Assembly: GCF_014698235.1 (NCBI RefSeq)
Contig: NZ_JACJSP010000009.1
Span: 62,001-126,000, forward strand
Direction: 5' to 3'
DNA length: 64,000 bases
Origin: Limnothrix sp. FACHB-406
Lineage (GTDB): Bacteria > Cyanobacteriota > Cyanobacteriia > CACIAM-69d
The translations under genes were made by a program, and so were the position numbers. Positions 2,139 to 56,027 of the stretch are shown one piece after another (the first letter of the stretch is position 1; every line of letters starts with the position of its first letter). The notes under the pieces are model-generated. The model was not told where the DNA came from. It made no database searches and was given only the letters and a program-made list of their open reading frames with translations.

Positions 2139-2288
2139 CCTAGGGCGTGTCGTCAAATCGCCTGAAACCCTGCTTCCACCGTTGTCAGATCGTGGGGGAC
2201 AAGGGGCTTAAGCCCCTTGTTACGACGATTGGGGCATGAAAAATCAACCGTTGTTGTCTGATCTCAGGAAATGACGACAGGCCCTAGG
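2139..2288. mobile_element. MITE-like element, 150 bp, with terminal inverted repeats
   Basis: The left end CCTAGGGCGTGTCGTCAT-like (2139 on) and the right end, read on the other strand as CCTAGGGCCTGTCGTCAT, form an ~18-bp terminal inverted repeat with only one or two differences. The centre (2200-2219) is the perfect palindrome CAAGGGGCTTAAGCCCCTTG. There is no coding capacity. Related copies or fragments occur at 35484-35637, 42383-42402, 55977-56027 and 60220-60300. The ends read CCTAGG, so a CTAG target is possible. A transposase able to move it is not in this window. Confidence 0.7.
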
Positions 2289-8557: not shown

Positions 8558-8581
8558 GACTTGCGAGGAACGTCAGATTGG

Positions 8582-8675
8582 GCGATCGATTGGGGCGATC
8601 AACTTGGGCGATCAACTTGGGCGATCGACTGGGGCGATCGACTGGGGCGATCGACTGGGGCGATCGACTTGAGCG
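8582..8675. repeat. 13-bp tandem repeat built on the HIP1 core
   Basis: Eight consecutive copies of a 13-bp unit close to GCGATCGACTGGG. The GCG of each copy starts at 8582, 8595, 8608, 8621, 8634, 8647, 8660 and, degenerate, 8673. Every intact copy carries GCGATC. The array fills most of the gap between the P450 start and the methyltransferase stop. It has no spacers, so it is not a CRISPR array. Confidence 0.9.
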
Positions 8676-8686
8676 AGCCTTTTGCC

Positions 8687-35483: not shown

Positions 35484-35637
35484 CTTAGAGGTTGTCATCA
35501 AATCCCCAAAACCCTGATGCTTGCGTTGTTATGGGATTGTGGGGAGCAAGGGGCTTAAGCCCCTTGTCTAGGGCGGTTGAGCTGCGACAATTAGTCATTT
35601 CAGCTTCAACCAACTTCATTGGATGATATGCCCTAGG
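35484..35637. mobile_element. MITE-like element, 154 bp, degenerate ends
   Basis: Second near-complete member of the family seen at 2139-2288. Left end CTTAGAGGTTGTCATCAAAT and right end, on the other strand, CCTAGGGCATATCATCCAAT form an imperfect terminal inverted repeat. The central palindrome CAAGGGGCTTAAGCCCCTTG is at 35547-35566, perfect. It lies just after the duplicated toxin-antitoxin modules and could also serve as their 3' end. Confidence 0.65.
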
Positions 35638-37094: not shown

Positions 37095-37797
37095 TTCCGA
37101 TTCTCCTTCCATTGGCTGACGAGGTTAGCTGACGGGCTAGGCTTGGAAGTAGCCTTCTTGCAGCACAAGATTCGCCCCAAAATTTAGGCTGGTTCCCCCG
37201 CTCGATCGCCCTGCTTCAATTGGACTTAAAGACCAGAGCCGATCGATTAAGCGTTGACTACGAGATAGTGAAAGTTGCAATTTGTCCATGTCGTTTATCA
37301 ATGACATAAAGCGACTTAATCCAATCAAGTGTCTACTCAAAAAAATCCAAACTTGGTCTAATTGCCCTTCAGCTAGAAATGTCTGCCTTGAGGTTGGCTA
37401 ACCATGACTGATGAAATTTCTTGACGAATTGCCAAAAAGTTTCTTCATTTTGCTATTGGTTTTGGTGATTGCAAAATCAATAGCTCTAGGCATGTCATTC
37501 CAAGCATGGAGGCAATGCATGAAGACTCAGGTGGAATCAGCCTAAAGACTTTGGGCAACTGATAGATTTTGATGAATTTCTTTTGAGTTGGCTCGGTGGA
37601 TTTAAACCTGTGTCATGGATCACAGGTTATTTGGACAGACTGCCGTTTGACGCTAGCATGGATAACTTGGGTGGGTCAATCAAGGGGCGATCGCCTAGGA
37701 TTTGGCTCTAGGTACAATTCCCAAGTTCCGGTACTGTGAATAAACGAGTCAAACTCACCGTAAATTGAGTCACCAAATCGCCGTTAGACCCCGAGCA
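37095..37797. other. 703-bp divergent intergenic region, permease/cysK
   Basis: Holds the two divergent promoters. No gene is supported. A 67-codon minus-strand frame (37137-37340) lacks recognisable features. The part 37370-37660 is AT-rich. Confidence 0.4.
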
Positions 37798-38794: not shown

Positions 38795-38876
38795 AGCCGG
38801 AGGTTGCAAGGCGTTGCGCTTAGTCCTCTCTGAGGCGATCGAACCGGAGGGCGCAAGGCGTTGCGCCCCTACGGAG
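38795..38876. repeat. Two direct copies of a GCGCAAGGCGTTGCGC-type repeat
   Basis: CCGGAGG followed by a GCAAGGCGTTGCGC palindrome occurs at about 38797-38820 and again at about 38843-38867. The second continues as CCCTACGG. The same GTAGGGGCGCA/TGCGCCCTAC type of sequence recurs between pyrE and fabG. It may act as a cysK terminator or insulator. Confidence 0.65.
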
Positions 38877-39607: not shown

Positions 39608-39628
39608 GCGATCACCCAACCCGAATTT

Positions 39629-39707
39629 CCGTAGGGGCGCACCGCTGTGCGCCCTCCGGTTCGATCAATTCGGGTGGGGGCTGGGCGCACGCGGTGCGCC
39701 CCTACGG
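39629..39707. repeat. Perfect 17-bp inverted repeat between pyrE and fabG
   Basis: CCGTAGGGGCGCACCGC (39629-39645) is exactly complementary to GCGGTGCGCCCCTACGG (39691-39707). Each arm also contains a smaller internal hairpin (GGGGCGCACCGCTGTGCGCCC and its partner). The layout resembles a paired REP element. It could stop transcription from pyrE, but no T-run follows. Confidence 0.8.
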
Positions 39708-40544: not shown

Positions 40545-42707
40545 ATGAGAGCCACGCGCTGGGCGATCGCCCCGGAAGATGCCGATCGCGCCGCTGAGAT
40601 TGCAGCGGCCACGGGCCTGTCGCCGCTGTTGGCGCAGGTGCTGATTAACCGGGGTGTGGATTCACCGGAGCTGGCCGAGCTGTTTCTCGATCCGGATTTG
40701 GAGGCACTGCCCAGCCCGATCGCGGAGTTCCCCGACCTGGCCTCGGCGCTGGATCTGTTGGCGGAGGCGATCGAACGGGGCGATCGGCTCGGGATTTGCG
40801 GCGACTACGACGCGGACGGCATGACCAGCACCGCCCTGCTGATCCGCGCCTTCCGTCATTTGGGAGCCGATGTGACCGCCTCGATTCCCAGCCGGATGAC
40901 CGATGGCTACGGGATTAATCAGCGGATCGTGGAGGAGTTTCACCAAAACGGAATCAGCCTGATCCTGACGGTGGACAACGGGATCGCCGCCTACGAGCCG
41001 ATCGCCCGGGCCCGGGAGCTGGGGTTAACCGTGATCCTGACCGATCACCACGATGTGCCGCCCCGAATTCCGCCCGCCAACGCGATCCTGAACCCGAAAT
41101 TAATCGACCCGGCCTCGCCCTACGCCGGATTGGCCGGGGTCGGTGTGGCCTACGTGTTGGCCGTTGCTTTGGCCCAGCGGATGGAGCGATCGGCCCCGTG
41201 GAAATCCCTGTTGCAACTGTTCACCCTGGGGACGATCGCCGACCTTGCGCCCCTGACCGGCGTGAATCGGCGCTGGGTCAGGCGGGGCCTCAGTTTGTTG
41301 CCCTTTTCTACCGTGCCCGGAATTCGCGCCCTGCAACAGGTGGCGGGGATCAGCGTGGCCGGCGATGGGCAAGGGGACGGCAACGCCACGGCCAGCACCA
41401 GCAAAGGCCCCCTAAAACCGGAGGCGATCGGCTTTCGGCTCGGGCCGCGGATCAACGCCGTGGGGCGGATTCACCAGCCGAATGTGGTGATCGACCTGCT
41501 GACCACCGATGACAGTGGTGAGGCCCTAGAGCGGGCCATGCAATGCGAGGAAATCAACCAGAAGCGCCAACAAATTTGTAACCAAATTGAGCAGGAAGCC
41601 CACGCCTGGTATCAGTCCAGCGATTTGGATCTGAAGGCGGCGCGGGTGATGCTGGTGGTGCAACCGGATTGGCACCACGGGACGATCGGGATTGTTGCCT
41701 CGCGGTTGGTGGAGCGTTACGGTGCGCCCGTGTTCATCGGCACTTACGAAGAAGAAAACCCCGAGCAGGTGCGCGGTTCCGCCCGCAGCATCCCGGAATT
41801 CAACGTGTTTGAAGCCCTGGAATATTGCAAAGACCTGCTAACCAAGCATGGCGGCCACCGGGCGGCGGGCGGCTTTTCGCTCCCGGCGGCCAATTTGCCG
41901 GCTTTTGAGGCGCGGTTGCGGGAATTTGCCCAAACCTGCTTGCAACCGGAGCATATTTGCCCGCTGGTGCAGCCCGATGTGCGGGCCAGCCTGGGCGAGC
42001 TGGATGGGGAGCTGTACGAACAAATCGATATGCTGCACCCCTGCGGCATTGGTAACCCCGACCCGGTGTTTTGGTCGCCGGGATTGCAGGTGGTGGGTCA
42101 GCGGCAGTTGGGGCAGGATCGCAAGCATTTGCGGCTCACGGTGTCCGATGGGACGGGCCAAATGGAGGCGATCGCCTGGCGCTGGGGCGATGCGTTTCCG
42201 TTGCCGCCCGTGGTGGATGTGGCCTATCAGCTCAAGGAAAACCACTGGAACGGCGCGGTGAATTTGGAACTGGATGTGGTGGCGATCCGGCCCGCTGTCG
42301 CTGGTAGTGCCCCGGCTCGATCGCCCGTCCTAGCCGATCGCCCGGCCACCTACGATCCAGCCGTAACAGCCGCCGTACCAGACAAGGGGCTTAAGCCCCT
42401 TGCCCCCAATAGCCGCCAGCCTCTTGCTCCCCCAAGTCCCAAGCGGGCCAACTTTACCTTCCGCGATCGCCCCTACAACTGCGCCTGGGGCGATCGGGAC
42501 GGCCAGCCAGAATTACGGATCCGCAACCCCGAGGGCAAAGTGCTGGCCCTAGTGGACGGGGAACCCACCGGCCTGCTCGGCCCCAACCGGGAAACGGCCG
42601 AGCCAGTGGATTTGAATCATCCCTTTTTTAGATCGCTGATTGCCGCCGCCAAAGGGGCCCTAACTGGGGCTGATCCCGCTAATTCAGGCCTAACTGGGGC
42701 CGAATGA
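40545..42707 (+). CDS. recJ: Single-stranded-DNA-specific exonuclease RecJ
   Basis: 5'-3' exonuclease on single-stranded DNA used in recombination and repair. 720 residues. The DHH phosphoesterase part shows [27 protein letters not shown] and [23 protein letters not shown]. The DHHA1 part shows [32 protein letters not shown] and [13 protein letters not shown]. An OB-like C-terminal region contains [19 protein letters not shown] low-complexity linker (about 585-640) includes DKGLKPLAP, encoded by the 20-bp palindrome at 42383-42402. The last 29 bp overlap the convergent GGDEF-EAL gene. It starts ATG with GGAGC upstream. Confidence 0.95.
42383..42402. repeat. Palindromic MITE core inside recJ
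   Basis: The perfect 20-bp palindrome CAAGGGGCTTAAGCCCCTTG is present in the recJ frame, encoding part of the linker DKGLKPLAP. No frame disruption results. It is the same sequence as the cores at 2200-2219, 35547-35566 and 55979-55998. Confidence 0.85.
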
Positions 42708-55976: not shown

Positions 55977-56027
55977 GACAAGGGGCTTAAGCCCCTTGCT
56001 GCCCAAGACGATTGGGACTTGATCAGG
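55977..56027. repeat. MITE fragment with 20-bp palindrome
   Basis: GA followed by the perfect palindrome CAAGGGGCTTAAGCCCCTTG (55979-55998) and a right flank GACGATTGGGACTTGATC. The flank matches the one at 2221-2240 and, degenerately, at 60247-60266. The outer ends of the element are not recognisable here. Confidence 0.75.

Follow-up and report, generated by a model that had tools for sequence, protein, structure and literature searches.

The recJ gene of a Limnothrix genome contains, in frame and in the part encoding a linker predicted to be disordered, one copy of a short palindromic repeat that is dispersed through the genus. The block is best explained as a solo SDR/REP-type repeat of ca. 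27 bp that was inserted into the linker in an ancestor of the genus and has been carried since as a tolerated passenger peptide (probability ca. 0.78). The window referred to below is the whole stretch of DNA that was analysed (64,000 nucleotides). Genomes are coded as follows: G000 is the Limnothrix genome studied, G001 and G002 are the other two species of the genus, G005 is a sister genus, and G003 and G004 are two members of another sister genus.

The palindrome and its dispersal

Four exact copies of the palindromic core were located in the window:

42383..42402, no strand assigned: palindrome in recJ, a perfect 20-bp CAAGGGGCTTAAGCCCCTTG, in frame, with the codons for DKGLKPLA
2200..2219, no strand assigned: exact intergenic copy, central in a foldback MITE
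35547..35566, plus strand: exact intergenic copy in the canonical orientation
55979..55998, minus strand: exact intergenic copy

An earlier note, made from the sequence of the window, had placed the palindrome in frame in recJ at 42383-42402 and assigned it to a dispersed family; its sequence, coordinates and frame were all correct, and the family assignment is upheld by the copy numbers. Dinucleotide shuffles of the window gave an expectation of 0.01 matches with up to three mismatches, compared to the four exact copies observed (starts 2200, 35547, 42383 and 55979), and a chance match of the recJ block was ruled out. The G000 genome (4.50 Mb, 38 contigs) holds 109 exact copies, or 180 when up to three mismatches are allowed; a reversed-pattern control returned 0 matches. 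Exact copies numbered 238 and 272 in the two other species of the genus and 28 in G005, and none occurred in G003 or G004. Across the class, the exact 20-mer was present in 44 of 242 drawn genomes, with a patchy distribution and a maximum of 93 copies outside the genus. The sequence CAAGGGGCTTAAGCCCCTTG did not occur in any of the papers searched.

The exact 20-mer was also seen in four IMG/VR viral contigs (L305-L309) with unrelated flanks; these are perhaps terminator-like hairpins that arose independently. Elsewhere in the window lie a c-di-AMP riboswitch (37098-37250, minus strand; RF00379, 67.1 bits) and, at 8573-8676, a 13-bp unit, repeated in tandem, that includes GGCGATC and is related to the HIP1 octamer.

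The recJ copy and its linker

40545..42707, plus strand: recJ, single-strand exonuclease of 720 aa with DHH, DHHA1 and RecJ_OB domains
42303..42437, plus strand: region coding for the predicted disordered linker (residues 587-631, pLDDT <50)
42420..42433, plus strand: possible degenerate half-copy, CCTCTTGCTCCCCC (in G001, CCCCTTGCCCCC)

The linker connects RecJ_OB (residues 478-578) to a small beta domain at the C-terminus. AlphaFold modeling (alignment of 40 RecJ) gave a mean pLDDT of 86 overall and values below 50 for residues 587-631, insert included; the predicted disorder agrees with the earlier suggestion that the region is flexible. Because the first base of the core is the last base of a GAC codon, it reads D-KGLKPL-A. 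The peptide had originally been given as DKGLKPLAP, of which DKGLKPLA is encoded by the codons of the core and the final P by the flank. The palindrome can be read through without a stop in two of its three frames, which yield KGLKPL or RGLSPL, the same peptide being obtained from either strand. Persistence of the recJ copy is attributable to the disorder of the linker, to the two open frames and to a total length that keeps the reading frame. The combination of a core and a possible half-copy resembles the core-plus-half-site layout of the copies in an MmeI-like methylase, described next.

Copies in other protein genes

The earlier note had called the recJ copy the only one in coding sequence 'here'. 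This holds for the window, where the other three copies lie outside long ORFs, but not for the genome, in which a 5-oxoprolinase gene also carries the palindrome. A search for further in-gene copies, as proposed at the outset, yielded at least three genes in the genus among the copies sampled: those for the 5-oxoprolinase, an MmeI-like restriction-methylase and a glycosyltransferase fusion. In the 5-oxoprolinase, the palindrome lies in frame between Hydantoinase_A and Hydantoinase_B (the HyuA-HyuB linker), with one exact and one degenerate copy in G000 and two exact copies in G002. The methylase has an in-frame copy in both G001 and G002, read in the RGLSPL frame; the glycosyltransferase fusion has one in the same two species, read as KGLKPL and situated in a loop. 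All in-frame copies that were found (recJ and the three further genes) sit in linkers or loops.

In the methylase of the sister genus G005, the site is empty, with well conserved surroundings (LIPQWETRADTLDEQ); this is the clearest evidence that the palindrome family inserts within genes. In G005 itself, a degenerate copy is present in a different, second linker of the methylase, and an exact copy at a G002 contig end apparently occupies that same second linker.

Only two of 56 sampled G000 copies fell inside long ORFs, although ORFs of at least 350 codons by themselves make up ca. 58% of the 146 kb of contig C9 that were sampled (28,468 codons counted). Genes thus hold far fewer copies than their share of the sequence, the pattern to be expected if insertions into genes are mostly avoided or lost. 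The sampling of copies was blind to genes; the in-gene count excludes ORFs that merely start at a copy and leaves out L222, an ORF of 313 codons whose coding status is doubtful.

MITEs carrying the palindrome

2140..2287, no strand assigned: MITE with ends CTAGGGCGTGTCGTCA and TGACGACAGGCCCTAG, the palindrome at 2200 being central

Many of the intergenic copies form the centre of foldback elements of 130-170 bp with terminal inverted repeats. One type, with ends TGTCGTCA..TGACGACA, was found in G001 at C100:42041 with an imperfect core; this element (L109, about 1970-2115) ends in TTAGGGCCTGTCGTCA and TGACGACAGGCCCTAA, and the matching site in G000 is empty and bears marks of a TA target, which suggests mobilisation by an IS630/Tc1-type route. 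Another type, with GAGGATGTCTGA ends, is located at C100:114441 in G001 and is missing from G000. The central unit is thus common to at least two MITE families. Some of the core-bearing MITEs are absent at clean sites of sister species. At the site of the MITE at 2140-2287, G001 holds the opposite orientation, as if the element had been flipped in place or replaced. Whereas the intergenic copy at 2200 has terminal inverted repeats, the copies in protein genes consist of the central unit alone, and neither the recJ copy nor the others in genes possess such repeats.

Unrelated palindromes in the same slots

In three of the four genes, the species that lacks CAAGGGGCTTAAGCCCCTTG at the site in question has a palindrome of unrelated sequence there instead, which likewise keeps the frame. 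The G000 glycosyltransferase slot contains GTAGGGGCGCACCGCCGTGCGCCC (VGAHRRAP), the G000 methylase slot contains GCGCAGGGCTGTGCGTCCCTAC, and the G001 5-oxoprolinase slot contains a CTCACCCC..CTCTCCCA-GGTGGGGAGAGG element (CTCACCCC..CTCTCCCAGGTGGGGAGAGG). At an intergenic site upstream of recJ, a GCGCA palindrome is present in G000 and G002, and a one-mismatch core is present in G001.

These four sites, at which the CAAGGGG palindrome of one species corresponds to an unrelated palindrome in another, raise the alternative that genes and intergenic regions contain hairpin slots, and that repair or recombination at an extruded hairpin swaps one palindrome family for another, the recJ slot being one in which all three species happen to share a single family. 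Such exchange would also account for the MITE at window position 2200, which sits in the opposite orientation at this site in G001, and it has a parallel in Xanthomonas, where the recB genes of two species carry unlike REPs at roughly the same position (PMC3733652). By simple parsimony, the 5-oxoprolinase and the intergenic site require a replacement on the G001 branch; however, the three species form a near-trichotomy, which makes the direction of change uncertain. Tolerant linkers are few, so independent insertions into one linker are plausible. In the methylase, the left flank found in the outgroup (QWE) is kept in G000 but not in G001 or G002, a pattern more in keeping with two separate insertions than with a swap. 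As it was the CAAGGGGCTTAAGCCCCTTG palindrome that led to the slots, their number is not an unbiased rate. Given the near-trichotomy and the discovery of all four sites through one family, exchange is considered unlikely, if the strongest of the alternatives; the general proposition that short hairpins of different families replace each other at fixed slots, in frame within genes too, by an exchange that a hairpin or cruciform directs, and not by loss followed or preceded by new insertion, is, at a similar level, doubtful.

A second palindrome family, AGGGGCGCAC..GTGCGCCC, is represented in the window at 38837-38875 and 39628-39703. In other parts of G000 it also occurs in frame in genes, among them a 900-codon ORF with three copies 81 bp apart (L300 12529-12712).

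Extended unit, hairpin and strand polarity

42380..42407, minus strand (antisense to recJ): extended unit, canonical GGGGG-core-TCT, with columns conserved across the genome copies

All 109 exact copies in G000 have a purine 5' and a pyrimidine 3' of the core. When copies were set in one orientation, the conserved columns were G, G/C, G/A, G, core, T, C/T and T/A (ca. 27 nt), for a consensus of approximately GGRG-CAAGGGGCTTAAGCCCCTTG-TYW. Base pairs were counted in 221 of the 619 exact copies across the three genomes of the genus. The outer pair was G.T in one orientation in 194 of these 221. The next pair outwards (-2/+21) was G-C in 74 and A-T in 71, i.e. Watson-Crick in 145 compared to 96 expected; two subtypes supply much of this pairing, so shared descent may add to the covariation. 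The core stem is nearly invariant, the imperfect copy types comprising three compensatory changes, 48 broken pairs and four wobble pairs. The RNA fold of the canonical strand was calculated at -24.1 kcal/mol and that of the opposite strand at -15.2 kcal/mol. The purine and pyrimidine flanks, the G.T polarity and the unequal folding together indicate that the element has a direction, unlike a plain palindrome.

A directional hairpin could be a selected DNA or RNA signal (a terminator, a processing site or a protein-binding site), with the recJ copy kept for regulation. The core is much more conserved than its flanks, and this conservation, the apparent covariation and the strand polarity of the hairpin, the mostly intergenic location of the copies and the recurrence of the exact 20-mer across the class would all suit such a role. 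Against it, the recJ transcript runs through the weaker-folding strand, a U-run is absent, and a search of the window for Rfam structured RNAs returned no family at the palindrome. Copy number, moreover, varies more than two-fold among the species of the genus, and two relatives have no copies. Regulatory retention of the recJ copy was accordingly judged improbable.

Probable insertion history of the recJ copy

The intact 20 bp occupy the same recJ position in G000, G001 and G002, with indels and substitutions directly alongside. The RecJ linker is 69-72 aa long in these three species; in G005, which is ca. 67% identical over RecJ, it is 58 aa long and the block is absent. The core peptide was sought in ca. 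80 further cyanobacterial RecJ sequences, and none had it except the G002 protein's own record (L027); the linkers of these proteins are mostly 30-50 aa, and a few are much longer. The earlier note had reasoned that conservation of the peptide in distant RecJ proteins would place it before the repeat family, and the ca. 80 cyanobacterial sequences gave no sign of such conservation. It had also proposed that absence of the block from close relatives would show insertion: the sister genus and the distant RecJ proteins lack the block, but all three species of the genus are filled. The idea that the peptide is an old feature of RecJ, to which the repeat match would be secondary or coincidental, is ruled out for practical purposes: the peptide is present throughout the three species, but the sister genus and the ca. 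80 other RecJ proteins lack it, and identity at 20 of 20 bases to a family of 109 genome copies is not chance.

Because all three species carry the block, it most likely entered recJ before their split. A precise empty recJ site was not found among these relatives, the three species being filled and the G005 linker being too diverged to define boundaries; insertion before diversification is therefore the likeliest history rather than a demonstrated event. Divergence at four-fold sites among the three species is ca. 15%, and the core covers a handful of third positions, so the identity of the core in the three species is by itself uninformative. No case can be made for additional selection on the core sequence within recJ, as too few changes are expected at this divergence.

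For the preferred reading, solo insertion of the repeat, the following course is proposed. The unit, along with a few flanking bases, would have been inserted into the linker that joins the RecJ OB domain to the C-terminal beta domain, in an ancestor of the genus. It may have spread as a hairpin of RNA or single-stranded DNA, an intermediate that was moved in trans; neither a target duplication nor a transposase was identified for the solo unit. The inserted residues would constitute a passenger peptide with no RecJ-specific function.

Comparison with known repeats

The SDR of Nostoc punctiforme and its relatives, reportedly described by Elhai et al. in 2008, are said to be dispersed, hairpin-forming sequences of ca. 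21-27 nt with covarying pairs, often inside minitransposons; in-frame copies within protein genes were reportedly not the focus of that work. The Limnothrix unit is of this size (ca. 27 nt, with 109-272 exact cores per genome), and it is nested in the same manner, being central in MITEs with TGTCGTCA and GAGGATGTCTGA ends. The likeness, drawn from the described features of the SDR, lies in size, hairpin and nesting.

A GTAG/CGTC tag defines two large REP superfamilies. Near the 221 sampled copies, GTAG was seen 28 times compared to 29 expected, and CGTC/GACG was enriched only at +24, within one MITE arm. The unit differs from these REPs in having no GTAG beside the hairpin and CGTC/GACG in one MITE arm only, and membership in these superfamilies was rejected on the tag. 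These REPs are palindromes of 20-40 bp that are mostly intergenic, with a few in frame in genes, and many of the intragenic ones reside in DNA repair genes in several bacteria (PMC3733652). The Limnothrix repeat is like them: a short palindrome, mostly intergenic, with a few in-frame copies that include one in a repair gene.

The palindromic elements of Rickettsia (Ogata et al. 2000, reviewed in PMC2229807 and PMC10969869) form in-frame fusions with protein genes that have no relation to one another, and are tolerated there. The in-frame inserts in recJ and in the 5-oxoprolinase, MmeI-like methylase and glycosyltransferase genes are comparable, and the resemblance to Rickettsia proposed in the earlier note is apt for the outcome, an in-frame insert that a linker tolerates. 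It does not extend to the element itself, for those of Rickettsia are ca. 100-150 bp and frequent in genes, whereas the Limnothrix unit is ca. 27 bp and rare in genes; the SDR and the intragenic REPs are closer.

A genus of cyanobacteria is hereby added to the known cases of protein-coding palindromic repeats, its unit being only ca. 27 bp long, and the four genes allow insertion history to be compared across close species. The recJ case alone fits a known kind; the part that merits follow-up is the occupancy of the same slots by unrelated palindromes. It makes the movement of very small repeats testable, as hairpin exchange and repeated insertion would leave different junctions.
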